Below, one piece after another: positions 58,145 through 63,381 of a DNA stretch of 64,000 nt. Below the pieces are notes generated by a model that was not told where the DNA came from, ran no database searches, and saw nothing but the letters and a program-made list of their open reading frames with translations. The translations under genes and the position numbers were made by a program. The stretch spans positions 124,001 through 188,000 of the forward strand of contig NZ_CP035914.1 of assembly GCF_004209775.1 (NCBI RefSeq). The letters run 5' to 3'. The first letter of the stretch is position 1. Each line of letters starts with the position of its first letter. The stretch is from Synechococcus sp. WH 8101 (GTDB lineage Bacteria; Cyanobacteriota; Cyanobacteriia; PCC-6307; Cyanobiaceae).

Positions 58145-58312
58145 ATGACCGATCTCCCCTTCCCTTTTTTCCTGATGTTGGATCGTGTGAGTTGGGTGGA
58201 TCGTCAGGCGGTGCTGAGGCGGCACGGCCGTCTCAGCGATCAGGCGATGCTGCGTCTGCGCTCTGCACTGATGCGCTGGTTCGCTTGTTCCCCTGGGGGG
58301 CAGTCGCTCTGA
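58145..58312 (+). pseudogene. frameshifted C-terminal half of a MazF-like toxin
   Basis: A 55-codon frame, FLMLDRVSWVDRQAVLRRHG then RLSDQAMLRLRSALMRWFA. It matches the end of MazF/PemK proteins (pattern VMVDRI-x-VxRxxLG-x2-IGRLSxExMxxVxxAL). Reading the same frame upstream from 58112 gives PPERYEQPTP, equivalent to the EPTP segment before that block. One frame change at about 58105-58128 would therefore join it to the preceding ORF. It could be translated alone from ATG 58145 but would lack the active site. Its last 73 bp overlap glcF on the other strand. Confidence 0.5.
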
Positions 58313-59577
58313 GGCGCTGACAACCCGGTAGATCGGGCCAGCAGTTGCATCGGATGCAGGACCTCCGGACCATCGACCTCCAGGTGGCGGCGCAGTTGCA
58401 GGCTGCAGCCGATGTTGGCGCTCGCGATCACGCTGGCACCGGTGCCGCTCAGGTCTTGTGCCTTGATCTGGCCGAGTTCGGCCGCCTCGGCTGGCTGCAC
58501 CAGGTTGTAGATGCCGGCGCTACCGCAACACACGCCCACTTCGGTGGCCTCGCGCAGCTCCAGCTCCGGAATCGCCCGCAGCAGCTGGCGAGGCTGGGCG
58601 GTGATGCCCTGGCCGTGGATCATGTGGCAAGCATCGTGATAAGCCACTGCGATCGGCAGCGGTTGGAGGGAGCGGCGGAATGCGTCTGAGAGGCCCCGGG
58701 CCGCCAGGAATTCATGCACATCCAACACGGGGTAGGGAAAGCCGCTTTGCCCCTCGTTCAGCAGCTCGCCGTAGGCCTTCATGGTGTGACCACAGCCGGA
58801 GGCCGCCACCAACACCGCATCGAGGCCCTCGACTCCCGCGGCCGTAGAGAAGCTGCGAACTAGCTCGCTGGCCAGTTCCCGCGTCTGTTCGAGCTGCCCC
58901 TGGTGGTGGCTCACGGCACCGCAGCAGCCCTGATCCGCAGGGATCACCACCTCGAATCCGTTCGCCTGGAGCACCGCCACGGTGGCCTGATTCACATCCG
59001 GATCGAAGCAGCGCTGCACGCAGCCGAGCACCAGTCCCACCCGGCCGCGGCGTTCGCCCCGGGCCGGATTCAGCAGGGGAAAGCGATCCCTGAACCCCTC
59101 CGCTGCCAGGGGGGGCAACAGCGCCTCCATGGCCTCCAGCTGGGGTCCGAGCCAGCGGGGCAGGCCGGCGCGGCGGGCCAGGGTTTGGAGGGGTCCTCCT
59201 GCGTAGGCGCGCAGGGGGGTGAGCAGGGCGCGCAGCCGTTTGGGGTAGGGGAGCACCGCCAGCAGCAGCTGGCGGAAGCTCTGCTGCCAGGGAGAGCGCA
59301 GCTCGTCTGTGTTCAGCTTTGGCCGGGTCGCCTCGATCAGCTGGTCGTAGCGCACCCCGGAGGGGCAGGCGCTGACGCAGGCGAAGCAGCCCAGACAACT
59401 GTCGAAATGGGACGCCACGGTGGCATCGAGGCTCAGCTCGCCCGCTTCGATCGCCTTGAGGGTGTGGATGCGCCCCCTTGGTGAATCCATCTCCGTGCCC
59501 AACACCCGATAGCTGGCGCAGGTGGGGAGGCAGAAGCCGCAATGGATGCAGGGGTCGGTGGGGTCAGCGATCGCCAT
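58240..59577 (-). CDS. glcF: glycolate oxidase iron-sulfur subunit GlcF
   Basis: A 445-residue protein with two N-terminal [4Fe-4S] motifs (CIHCGFCLPTC and CLGCFACVSACP) and two CCG domains (VLGCVQRCF ... DQGCCGA and YHDACHMIHGQG ... GVCCGSAGIYN). It takes electrons from the GlcD/GlcE flavoproteins in glycolate oxidation. ATG 59577 gives the family start; it overlaps the end of the PhyH gene by 14 bp. The last about 25 residues (after LLARSTGL) are unlike the family and read through the antisense of the decayed toxin, so the original stop may have been lost. Confidence 0.92.
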   Translation of the reverse strand: MAIADPTDPCIHCGFCLPTCASYRVLGTEMDSPRGRIHTLKAIEAGELSLDATVASHFDSCLGCFACVSACPSGVRYDQLIEATRPKLNTDELRSPWQQSFRQLLLAVLPYPKRLRALLTPLRAYAGGPLQTLARRAGLPRWLGPQLEAMEALLPPLAAEGFRDRFPLLNPARGERRGRVGLVLGCVQRCFDPDVNQATVAVLQANGFEVVIPADQGCCGAVSHHQGQLEQTRELASELVRSFSTAAGVEGLDAVLVAASGCGHTMKAYGELLNEGQSGFPYPVLDVHEFLAARGLSDAFRRSLQPLPIAVAYHDACHMIHGQGITAQPRQLLRAIPELELREATEVGVCCGSAGIYNLVQPAEAAELGQIKAQDLSGTGASVIASANIGCSLQLRRHLEVDGPEVLHPMQLLARSTGLSAPQSDCPPGEQANQRISAERRRSIA

Positions 59578-60331
59578 GGCGCCATTGTGAAGGGCTGATC
59601 CGGATTCCGGCTTGCTGCAGTCGGCGTTTGAGTGTGGCGTCGTTGCGTTCCCGAAGGCTGTTGACAACAGGAGAATGCCCATAGCCGTGCAGCGTGGTCT
59701 GGGGATTGCGCGTGAGGGGAGCTCGCAGCCAGTTCACGATCAGGGCATGGCGCACGATGGGGCTGCGATTGCTGCTGGAGGCGTGCAAGGTCCAGGGCGT
59801 GTGAACCGTGGCGTCGCCGAAGGCCATCGGTGCCGCCATGGTGGGGGACCTTCCCGGCAGGCCGATGGGCGTACTGACAGCGGCCTGGGGTTGATGCAGA
59901 AGGCAATGGCGATGGCTGCCAGCCATGAACTTGAGAGGGCTGTTCATGGCATCCATTGCCTGCAGCGGGATCCACACCGACAGGGCCTCCAAGCTGTCGC
60001 TGGCGATGAAACGAGCGTCCTGATGCCAGGCGGTGCCGGGCTCCCCGGGGTTTCGGCTGTACAGGGTGACCGCCAGCAGCTCCAGCGGCTCTCCCTTGAG
60101 GTCGCAGGCGCGATCCAAGCGCTCCAGGAGGCTGGGGGTTCGCAGCAGCCGGTCCAGGGCAGGCAGATCATCCTGTAGAAACCAGAGGTGTTCACCGCTC
60201 TGTCGCCAGATGGCAGCGGAGTCGATGATCCGAGGGATGAGCTCGCGCAGTTGGAGGCGTGTCGACGGATCGAGAAATCCCGGAATGAAAACGAAACCGT
60301 CTCGGTTGAAGCGGGCTTCAGCCAGTTGCAT
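59564..60331 (-). CDS. phytanoyl-CoA dioxygenase (PhyH)-family Fe(II)/2-oxoglutarate oxygenase
   Basis: A 255-residue oxygenase. FNRDGFVFIPGFLDPSTRLQL is the family N-terminus. The iron-binding HxD is H103-Q-D105 in TAWHQDARFIA, the distal histidine is H183 in TLHASSSN, and the 2-oxoglutarate arginine is R194. Family members hydroxylate lipids, amino acids or small natural products, with succinate and CO2 as by-products. It overlaps the orphan gene upstream and glcF downstream by 14 bp each. The substrate is unknown. Confidence 0.85.
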   Translation of the reverse strand: MQLAEARFNRDGFVFIPGFLDPSTRLQLRELIPRIIDSAAIWRQSGEHLWFLQDDLPALDRLLRTPSLLERLDRACDLKGEPLELLAVTLYSRNPGEPGTAWHQDARFIASDSLEALSVWIPLQAMDAMNSPLKFMAGSHRHCLLHQPQAAVSTPIGLPGRSPTMAAPMAFGDATVHTPWTLHASSSNRSPIVRHALIVNWLRAPLTRNPQTTLHGYGHSPVVNSLRERNDATLKRRLQQAGIRISPSQWRHGDR

Positions 60332-61163
60332 GGCTCAGCAGATACAGCTTGAGCATCCAGTCGTTGGGGGAGTTTGCCGTCGGCATCAGTTTGAAGTGAC
60401 TGAAGCCGATTCGGTGGCTCGGTTGGTGATGGTGTTGCCAGTGGACCTGGCGCTCCAGACTGCGCTCCAGGGCTCCTGTGGGCAACCAGGGGCTCACTTG
60501 AGCAATCAGGCGATCGACGGCTGGATCGGGCCAGGCACTGCCCTGTTGCAGCCGTCCGGCAGGGAACAGTTCAAAGCCGAGATGGCTCAGGCCATCGTTT
60601 CCCCAGTCGAAGGTGGCCGACCAGGACAGGTCGTCGCAGGCCAGCAGATGGTTCAGTTCGGGATCCTCGAGCGCGGGATGACGTCCCCGGAGCCAGGCGG
60701 TCTGGCCGGCACCGGTGAGGTTCAGGCGCCAGCGGCCCTCGCGGTGGGCGGGGCGATCCGGGAACAGGCCTAGATGGCTGATTACAACATTTTCCCCAGG
60801 CAGGGTCCTGGGCCAGGGTCGTGACTCGATCGTCCCGTGGGCATTCGGCTCTTGTGGCACCAGTTCGTTGCGCAGGCTCTGCAGGGCCTGCACGGTGTGG
60901 GTCTGGTGGTTCATCAGCCGTAGGAACAGTCCTGGTGGCCCTTGGAAGGGCTGGTCGAACTCCAGCCATGGATCCCGCAAACTGCCGCGGCCTCTGCTGA
61001 GGGCCCGATCCAGGGCCTGCAGAAGGGGTGACCAGGCGTCCCACCCCCGGCGCGCGCTGGGGTGAGGAACCGGTAGGGAGAGATCCGCTGGCGCGTCGGG
61101 ATTGTTCAGTGGAATCTCGAGCAGCGCCACCGCTCCGATCGGCGGGGTGGGGCTTCGCATCAC
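60318..61163 (-). CDS. unrecognised 281-residue protein in the oxygenase cluster
   Basis: A soluble protein starting MMRSPTPPIGAVALLEIPL. It has no signal peptide or membrane helix, is rich in Trp, His and Pro, and has several strand-like stretches with conserved-looking turns (NVVISHLGLFPDRPAHREG, LSHLGFELFPAGRL). It ends IGFSHFKLMPTANSP then WMLKLYLLSHATG. I do not recognise the family. It overlaps the PhyH gene by 14 bp and lies 13 bp after the WelO5-like oxygenase gene, so it is very probably co-expressed with both. It might be a substrate-binding or biosynthetic partner; no function is claimed. Confidence 0.7.
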   Translation of the reverse strand: MMRSPTPPIGAVALLEIPLNNPDAPADLSLPVPHPSARRGWDAWSPLLQALDRALSRGRGSLRDPWLEFDQPFQGPPGLFLRLMNHQTHTVQALQSLRNELVPQEPNAHGTIESRPWPRTLPGENVVISHLGLFPDRPAHREGRWRLNLTGAGQTAWLRGRHPALEDPELNHLLACDDLSWSATFDWGNDGLSHLGFELFPAGRLQQGSAWPDPAVDRLIAQVSPWLPTGALERSLERQVHWQHHHQPSHRIGFSHFKLMPTANSPNDWMLKLYLLSHATG

Positions 61164-61176
61164 CCAGGTCCTCGCA

Positions 61177-61860
61177 TCACACGTAGCAGTGCAGAGTGGT
61201 GCGGGATTGGTTCAAGCGTAGAAATCCCCCCAGCACCACCCTGGGGCGCGGACCCACCGTCGGTCGGATCCGATGGGGGTGAACTCCAGCGTTAAACAGC
61301 AGCAGATCACCGGCTGCGAGGTCGTGTTGTTCCCGGTTGGCAAGGATCTCCAGCTCACCCCCGCCGCTGGCGGCCTGCAGTGCGTAGATGAAACTCATCT
61401 GCAGATCCGGGTCGAACAGGGTGTCGGTTAATCCACCGGTCTCGACCAGGTTGCAGTGATTCCAGTCGCGCTCGCAGTGATCCGGGATGGTGCCCCCCGG
61501 TGCCATCTCCCGCAGGGCCCAACCCGGCAGGGGGGTGCCGTCTGCAAGCCGCAGAGGATGAACGGGCAGAGCGAATCGCTGTTCGAGCCAATGGCAGAGG
61601 GGCTGGAAGAAGAGTTGATCGAGCCGTTGGCAGGGTTGACTCGGTCGTTTCCGAAGGCTGTGCCGATAGCGATCCGGTGCTGTGCCAACGCAGCTGCGGG
61701 GCAGGGTGCGACCCCATGGCGTATTGGCCCAGGCCCCTTGATGCCGCGTGCTGCGCAGCTCATCGCACACAGTGCTGATCGCTTCGTGATCCCAGCCTGG
61801 TCGGTCGCGACGGAGAGCCAGCTCGCCCTCCAGGACGCTCTGAAGCAGCGTGGGCGTCAA
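61177..61860 (-). CDS. WelO5-like Fe(II)/2-oxoglutarate oxygenase with HxE motif
   Basis: A 227-residue protein read from TTG 61860, 5 bp after the icd stop; no ATG fits, and the longer frame lies inside icd. The C-terminal half resembles the carrier-free halogenase WelO5: QMSFIYALQAASGGGELEI, then AGDLLLFNAGVHPHRI and RPRVVLGGFL. The first iron ligand motif is H128-C-E130, the distal histidine H196, the 2-oxoglutarate arginine about R207. WelO5 has HxG there, leaving room for chloride; a carboxylate at that place favours hydroxylation. So it is probably a hydroxylase of the WelO5-like family. The resemblance was judged from memory of WelO5. Confidence 0.72.
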   Translation of the reverse strand: MTPTLLQSVLEGELALRRDRPGWDHEAISTVCDELRSTRHQGAWANTPWGRTLPRSCVGTAPDRYRHSLRKRPSQPCQRLDQLFFQPLCHWLEQRFALPVHPLRLADGTPLPGWALREMAPGGTIPDHCERDWNHCNLVETGGLTDTLFDPDLQMSFIYALQAASGGGELEILANREQHDLAAGDLLLFNAGVHPHRIRPTVGPRPRVVLGGFLRLNQSRTTLHCYV

Positions 61861-61865
61861 CTGGC

Positions 61866-63290
61866 CTAAAAACGCTCGATGATCGCCTTGGCGAAACCGC
61901 TGCAGCTCACCGGCTCCACGGCCGGTTCCATCAACCGGGCCAGGTCGTAGGTGACCTGTTGATCCGCGATGGCGGCGCTGAGGCCCTGCGTGATCAGGTC
62001 GGCGGCCTCCTGCCAACCCAGGAACTCCAGCATCATCACGCCGCTGAGGATCACCGACCCCGGATTGATCCGATCCAGACCAGCGTGCTTCGGCGCGGTG
62101 CCATGGGTGGCTTCAAAAATCGCCGCGTGATCACCGATGTTGGCGCCGGGGGCCATGCCCAGACCGCCCACCACGGCGGCGGCGGCGTCGGAGATGTAGT
62201 CGCCGTTGAGGTTGAGGGTGGCCAGGATCGAATACTCCTGGGGCCGGGTCTGGATCTGTTGGAAAATGCTGTCGGCGATCCGGTCATCGACCAGCACCAT
62301 CTGCTTCCACTGGCCATTGCCGTGGCTGCTGCCGATCGCCTCGATCACGCCCTGTACCTCGGCATCGATCGCGGCCTTTTTCTCCGGCGTCAGGCTGTCG
62401 TAGCCCGGTTCGATCATGCGTGCATTCGCCTGCACACTCAGGTTGGGATCACTGTCGAGATTGCCGAGGATCCAGCTTTCCCGCTCGGTGATGCACACGT
62501 CACGGAATTCGGTGGTGGCCAGCTCGTAGCCCCAGTCGCGGAAGGCGCCCTCGGTGAATTTCATGATGTTCCCCTTGTGCACCAGGGTTACGTGACGCTT
62601 GTCGCCCTCCATGCGCAGGGCGTGCTGGATCGCCTTGCGGATGTGGCGCTGGCTGCCGTGCTTGCTCACCGGTTTGATGCCGATGCCGGCACCCTCCGGG
62701 ATCTGGCGCTGGCCCAGTTTGCCGTTAGCGGGGATCACCACCTCATTGAGGTGCTTGCGCAGCTCCTGCCCCACCGGGTCATTCGCTTCCCACTCCACCC
62801 CCATGTAGATGTCTTCGGTGTTTTCCCGATACACGATCACGTCGAGATCTTCCGGGCGTTTGTGGGGGCTCGGCGTGCCGGCGTAGTAGCGACAGGGGCG
62901 CACACAGGAATACAGATCAAAGAGTTGGCGCAGCGCCACGTTCAGGGAACGGATGCCGCCGCCCACCGGCGTGGTGAGGGGGCCTTTGATCGCCACGCCA
63001 TAACGGCGGATCGCTTCCAGGGTGTCTTCGGGCAGGTATTGATAGGTGCCGTAGAGGTCGCAGGCCTCATCGCCGGCGTACACCTTGAACCACTCGATGC
63101 GACGCTCGCCGCCATAGGCCTTGGCCACGGCGGCATCCAGCACCTTCTGGGTGGCAGGCCAGATGTCCACGCCGGTGCCGTCACCGCGGATAAAAGGGAT
63201 GATCGGGTCGTTGGCCACCACCGGCTGACCGTTCTCGAAGCGGATCGGTGTGCCCTGGCTGGGGGCCGTGAGCTTCTCGAACTGAGCCAT
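61866..63290 (-). CDS. icd: NADP-dependent isocitrate dehydrogenase
   Basis: A 474-residue enzyme converting isocitrate to 2-oxoglutarate, the carbon skeleton for ammonium assimilation in cyanobacteria. [16 protein letters not shown], the substrate loop [69 protein letters not shown] and [20 protein letters not shown] are typical. ATG 63290 ([13 protein letters not shown]) is preferred over 63317. The 2-oxoglutarate oxygenase gene starts 5 bp downstream. No clear NtcA site (GTA-N8-TAC) was seen in the 91-bp upstream spacer. Confidence 0.97.
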
Positions 63291-63381
63291 GGCTGGGTCG
63301 CCGCCGGGCGGCATCACATCGGGGCCGAGCCTATGACTCAGGGGGGATCCCTAAAGTTCGCCCTGATCCGCTGCGCCATCA

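Follow-up and report, generated by a model that had tools for sequence, protein, structure and literature searches.

A three-gene unit of Synechococcus sp. WH 8101, a marine strain of clade VIII (PMC7033273), is with a probability of about 0.62 a prenylation-plus-oxidation tailoring cassette that was gained as a unit and in which a WelO5-like enzyme serves as an HxE/H oxygenase. The substrate is probably aromatic and of the indole or tryptophan type, either free or within a peptide, and WH 8101 probably makes a prenylated, oxidised compound that has not been described before. The unit lies within the analysed window, a stretch of 64,000 nucleotides that corresponds to positions 124001-188000 of the single-contig genome of 2,630,292 bp (Table 1). 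According to the mechanism we propose, an ABBA-barrel prenyltransferase would prenylate an aromatic side chain, an indole being the most likely one, and would in this way supply, or itself use, a prenylated aromatic substrate. The WelO5-like enzyme would hydroxylate or otherwise oxidise the substrate and a PhyH-type enzyme would contribute a second oxidation, both acting on the prenylated product or, alternatively, prior to prenylation.

Table 1. Features of the cassette and its flanks in the window, and neighbourhoods of prenyltransferase homologues outside Synechococcus
Feature	Position (window) or locus	Strand	Basis
glcF-like Fe-S protein, conserved downstream flank	58240..59682	(-)	Pfam CCG/Fer4; directly after icd in genomes without cassette
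PhyH-type 2-oxoglutarate dioxygenase, 255 aa	59564..60331	(-)	Pfam PF05721, 67.7 bits; cassette partner in 5 genomes
281-aa protein, predicted ABBA-barrel aromatic/peptide prenyltransferase	60318..61163	(-)	AlphaFold2, Foldseek, homologues in RiPP clusters
WelO5-like 2-oxoglutarate/Fe(II) oxygenase, HxE variant, 227 aa	61177..61860	(-)	Pfam PF22814, PDB phmmer, hhalign, orthologues
R207 codon, candidate 2-oxoglutarate-binding Arg	61240..61242	(-)	Invariant in 5 orthologues; role inferred from spacing after distal His in fold
H196 codon, predicted distal iron-binding His	61273..61275	(-)	Aligned on WelO5 distal His; invariant, unlike H194
H128-C129-E130 codons, predicted HxE iron-binding motif at WelO5 HxG position	61471..61479	(-)	Alignment to WelO5 H164-V165-G166; invariant in 5 orthologues
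icd (isocitrate dehydrogenase), conserved upstream flank	61866..63317	(-)	Pfam PF00180; flank genus-wide
Prenyltransferase neighbourhoods with LanM and Nif11/NHLP precursors	L098, L116, L117		
Prenyltransferase neighbourhoods with Nif11 precursors	L110, L115		
Prenyltransferase neighbourhoods with lasso-type cyclases	L111, L114		
Prenyltransferase neighbourhood with Trp halogenase	L112		
Prenyltransferase neighbourhood without class among the nine	L113		

The oxygenase ORF was placed on the minus strand since the plus strand of the same interval has internal stops. Its length is counted from a TTG at 61860, and the frame continues open upstream into icd. A first-pass annotation, made from the sequence alone, had described the product as WelO5-like, and profile searches bore this out: Pfam PF22814 (WelO5) matched with 48 bits (E=1.6e-12) against a curated cut-off of 27, and the PDB chains retrieved at E<=1e-5 by phmmer and profile searches were all of the WelO5 type (5iqs, 5iqu, 5j4r, 6gem, 8acv and 8aut). 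Judged from its sequence, the oxygenase is a genuine relative of the chlorinating enzyme WelO5. With WelO5 and AmbO5, the carrier-protein-independent Fe/2OG halogenases of hapalindole-type alkaloids, it shares membership of PF22814, aligned iron His residues and a C-terminal GD-LLFN-G...HR...GGFL core, but it has HxE instead of HxG, is approximately 80 residues shorter and aligns strongly in its C-terminal part only. The strong similarity is confined to about the last 51 residues (profile positions 226-276), with the N-terminal half unaligned. The earlier statement that the C-terminal 80 residues follow WelO5 closely thus applies to this stretch, but not to the iron-motif segment, which aligned weakly to WelO5 in HMMER and better in hhalign (131 columns). 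No relatives were found in the viral contigs searched.

It is quite improbable that the protein is a generic HxD/HxE 2OG oxygenase, such as a lipid or amino-acid hydroxylase of core metabolism, that resembles WelO5 superficially and has unrelated neighbours. The generic family PF13640 (2OG-FeII_Oxy_3) also matches weakly, below its cut-off, and the gene follows icd, whose product makes 2-oxoglutarate. Against this, profile-profile comparison by hhalign gave a probability of 97.7% (E=1.9e-12) against five WelO5-family proteins of cyanobacteria, in the same iron-motif register, whereas a set of HxD oxygenases gave 22%. Moreover, the cassette is patchily distributed (5/31 genomes), unlike core metabolism, and its three genes occur together in all five carriers.

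The carriers of the oxygenase gene among the 31 genomes of the genus are WH 8101, G181, G156 (Synechococcus UW140), G169 (Synechococcus UW105) and G540, the latter four proteins being 93%, 57%, 56% and 55% identical to that of WH 8101. A scan of genome contigs returned only UW140 and UW105. The fifth family hit of the first genome search, a match in G064 (E=4.5e-4), was discarded because of stops within its frame. Across the five orthologues H128, C129, E130, D132, W133, N134, H196 and R207 are invariant; since H194 varies while H196 does not, H196 is favoured as iron ligand. With a dN/dS of 0.21 between the two closest orthologues, the gene is under purifying selection.

In the phmmer alignment H128-C129-E130 falls on H164-V165-G166 of WelO5, a position that reads H-V-D in 5iqu, the G166D variant of WelO5 (PMC8407142), and H196 falls on the distal His. 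The replacement of the halogenase HxG by HxE, as initially read, is therefore a conserved trait of the five orthologues. In WelO5 chloride can bind the iron at a site that the Gly leaves free; where a carboxylate ligand takes this place, oxygenase chemistry results. WelO5-type halogenases have Gly or Ala in HxG/A and a halide site; here an invariant Glu130 is found instead, and a facial triad of H128-x-E130...H196 would leave the iron without an open halide site. Given the conserved Glu130 at the WelO5 Gly position, hydroxylation or a related oxidation, rather than chlorination, is predicted as the most likely outcome, which agrees with the reaction suggested by the first-pass annotation.

The contrary case, that the oxygenase halogenates despite Glu130 or uses another ligand set, we consider very improbable. 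Other halogenase classes do not follow simple motif rules, and the AlphaFold model of the oxygenase, built from a 4-sequence alignment, was discarded as too poor for iron-site geometry (pLDDT 44, pTM 0.31), which leaves this case some room. However, E130 fills the very position whose Gly makes room for the halide in WelO5, it does so in all five orthologues, and a structure of WelO5 G166D exists (5iqu).

HxE is not unique to the Synechococcus gene within the WelO5 family, since it also occurs in other cyanobacterial members, as HFE in L010 and HCE in L012, one of which adjoins HxG paralogues in the same locus. A tree of the family does not settle the ancestry of HxE versus HxG, the branch to the Synechococcus clade measuring 4.85 changes per site. 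Because of this tree and the occurrence of HxE elsewhere, the idea that the gene is a possible relative of the halogenase ancestor lacks support. The rule that Gly marks a halogenase and Asp or Glu a hydroxylase is commonly probed with mutants, and WelO5-type enzymes are valued as biocatalysts; a natural HxE branch, together with HxG members in related cyanobacterial clusters, offers a direct comparison for this rule.

The oxygenase gene is the first of three co-directional and putatively co-transcribed genes, followed by those for the 281-aa protein and the PhyH dioxygenase. A gap of 13 bp separates the first two, and the last two overlap by 14 bp. Of the 31 genomes, 5 have the trio, intact and in the same order, between icd and glcF, whereas icd is directly followed by glcF in 11 genomes that lack the cassette and other genes occupy the junction in further genomes. 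Since the trio is constant in its carriers while the junction is empty or differently filled elsewhere, it is regarded as a unit that was inserted into a variable junction and would have been gained as a whole in some marine Synechococcus. None of the genomic islands that have been listed in WH 8101 (PMC7033273) includes the cassette. Its position downstream of icd, with two enzymes that consume 2-oxoglutarate, is suggestive but may be a coincidence, since icd holds that locus genus-wide, with or without the cassette. Genus-wide, the junction (window 59538-61866) is either empty or contains the cassette, a membrane glycosyltransferase-like, a D-lactate-dehydrogenase-like or a sulfotransferase-like gene, the last three being named by eye.

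The 281-aa neighbour is predicted, on the basis of its model, to be a previously unrecognised ABBA-barrel prenyltransferase. The AlphaFold2 model (pLDDT 70, pTM 0.73) has ten strands in beta-beta-alpha order, and the top Foldseek matches are all ABBA/DMATS aromatic prenyltransferases. Best among PDB entries is PriB (E=5.3e-5), followed by DMATS1, MpnD and CymD, all of these bacterial or fungal indole prenyltransferases being matched at prob 1.00. TM-scores are about 0.5, and therefore support the ABBA fold but not its details. From these four enzymes the 281-aa protein differs by the lack of detectable sequence similarity and by its length (281 versus approximately 350-400 aa). Searches against Pfam and NCBIfam, permissive thresholds included, and against PDB profiles gave no match. 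The cyanobactin prenyltransferases (TruF/LynF, TIGR04445) are of similar length, have the ABBA fold and are cyanobacterial, but hhalign found no significant profile-profile match to them and sequence kinship was rejected. Pfam Trp_DMAT (PF11991) had no match anywhere in cyanobacteria and is hence uninformative. The basic and Tyr residues R82, R146, K258, K272 and Y274 are invariant and lie on strands of the model; they are candidates for binding the diphosphate within the barrel. The dN/dS of 0.33 indicates purifying selection. If the prenyltransferase is active, a prenylated natural product is predicted in marine Synechococcus.

The earlier placement of the oxygenase outside any indole-alkaloid cluster held only in part. 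Unlike in the hapalindole setting, an indole isonitrile synthase (PF05141) gave no match in the five carrier genomes, in a search that had no positive control; on the other hand, the gene adjoins a predicted indole-type prenyltransferase in a conserved three-gene cassette. In hapalindole clusters WelO5/AmbO5 are accompanied by the ABBA-type prenyltransferases AmbP1/AmbP3, with which they cooperate in the pathway (PMC6632223), so that both WelO5/AmbO5 and the window oxygenase are genomically associated with an ABBA prenyltransferase, in the latter case a predicted one. It can be proposed tentatively, at somewhat under even odds, that the cassette product is a small, free, prenylated aromatic metabolite, derived for instance from free tryptophan or another indole, and that the route is a minimal parallel of the hapalindole pathway. 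This agrees with the stand-alone cassette and with best Foldseek matches that are L-Trp/indole prenyltransferases; the isonitrile synthase result speaks against it, as does the fact that the nearest sequence homologues are RiPP-cluster enzymes.

These homologues are distant and lie in cyanobacteria outside Synechococcus. With the Synechococcus 281-aa profile one homologue was identified among the loci examined, in genome G264, with a full-length alignment of 25-28% identity and the common motifs DLS-P-P, EFD, H-G, R-N, G-E--P, FSH-KL and K-YLL. The ORF immediately before it, with which it shares 4 bp, belongs to the WelO5 family (186.5 bits); the motif of this ORF is also HCE, and its 5' end is damaged by an in-frame stop. 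Also in this locus (L098 4052-15890) are the gene of a LanM lanthipeptide synthetase (892 bits), another prenyltransferase homologue, two PhyH genes, a squalene-hopene-cyclase-like ORF and a precursor with an NHLP leader and the Trp/Cys core CTWGVSCQSSSN. Thus, all three kinds of cassette gene recur together in a distant cyanobacterium. A transposase-like ORF is located upstream of the damaged WelO5-type ORF.

When the profile was widened by the G264 homologue, matches were obtained in 11 of 357 cyanobacterial genomes, and the Synechococcus family aligned to ten homologues with a probability of 96.4% (E=1.1e-9, 252 columns). Seven of the nine neighbourhoods examined outside Synechococcus are LanM/Nif11 or lasso clusters. 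The prenyltransferases of L116 (7997-9781) and L117 (8058-9779) carry a 2OG-Fe(II) oxygenase domain as a C-terminal fusion (68.5 and 66.7 bits); both fusion genes are preceded by another 2OG oxygenase, in LanM loci with approximately six Nif11-type precursors. With the 281-aa protein a predicted family of prenyltransferases is defined, whose members are repeatedly accompanied by 2OG oxygenases, twice as fusions, in lanthipeptide and lasso clusters. The oxygenases of about 215 aa beside the prenyltransferases of L115-L117 were ruled out as WelO5 relatives of the window gene, being HxD enzymes of PF13640. Lasso cyclase-like Asn synthetases are found beside the prenyltransferase-family genes of L111 and L114, the latter also with B2 and PqqD-type proteins, and in L112 (8471-11303) such a gene adjoins a flavin Trp halogenase (479 bits).

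MppC from Moorena producens, published in December 2025, is an ABBA-type lanthipeptide prenyltransferase which geranylates the Trp indole and acts on a cyclised peptide (PMC12715784). Prenylation of a lanthipeptide Trp fits the present family because homologues of the 281-aa protein lie in lanthipeptide clusters; the likeness to MppC consists of a predicted ABBA barrel and of distant homologues in cyanobacterial LanM/Nif11/NHLP clusters, and is drawn by fold prediction and context. It is conceivable, though rather doubtful, that the trio acts in trans on a prochlorosin-like ribosomal peptide whose gene lies elsewhere in the genome, prenylating and hydroxylating its Trp-containing core. The predominance of the prenyltransferase family in LanM/Nif11/NHLP or lasso clusters and the activity of MppC are in favour, and so are the prochlorosin precursors that are scattered in marine Synechococcus genomes, among them that of cassette carrier UW105 (PMC10783134). 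Yet LanM, Nif11 and NHLP genes are absent from the window and flanks of the cassette, whereas some homologues do have LanM and leader peptides nearby, and neither a precursor nor LanM adjoins the window gene as in MppC-type clusters. In addition, an N-terminal segment of about 45 residues that the RiPP-cluster homologues possess is missing from the Synechococcus prenyltransferase, and its C-terminus KLYLLSHATG has none of the aromatic residues that several of these homologues show at this place. The absence of a C-terminal leader-binding element was considered but not retained as a firm claim, since most homologues are likewise without a long tail. One RiPP-mining study of these strains does not mention prenylation. 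The fuller version, in which prenylated prochlorosin-like peptides are made in trans and the WelO5-family enzyme, as a non-halogenating branch, hydroxylates peptide-borne prenylated Trp, we consider unlikely. The preferred reading, a tailoring cassette that combines prenylation and oxidation within one pathway, accommodates a free as well as a peptide substrate.

Two of the loci examined carry WelO5-family genes with HxG motifs. In genome G363 (L059 6243-14106) LanM and an FkbM methyltransferase stand beside three WelO5-family genes, two of which are halogenase-like (HIG and HKG) and one of which reads HFE; a short ORF in this locus ends CNSTCHIGTAVGS. The FkbM methyltransferase is the 278-aa ORF that was at first read as a prenyltransferase. 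The locus is a candidate cluster for a chlorinated and oxidised lanthipeptide. In genome G516 (L058 7093-18584) an HVG gene of the family is found with an asparagine-synthetase-like gene, Rieske-like oxygenases, short-chain dehydrogenases and a P450-like gene, as read by eye, and this locus possibly directs the synthesis of an uncharacterised halogenated product.
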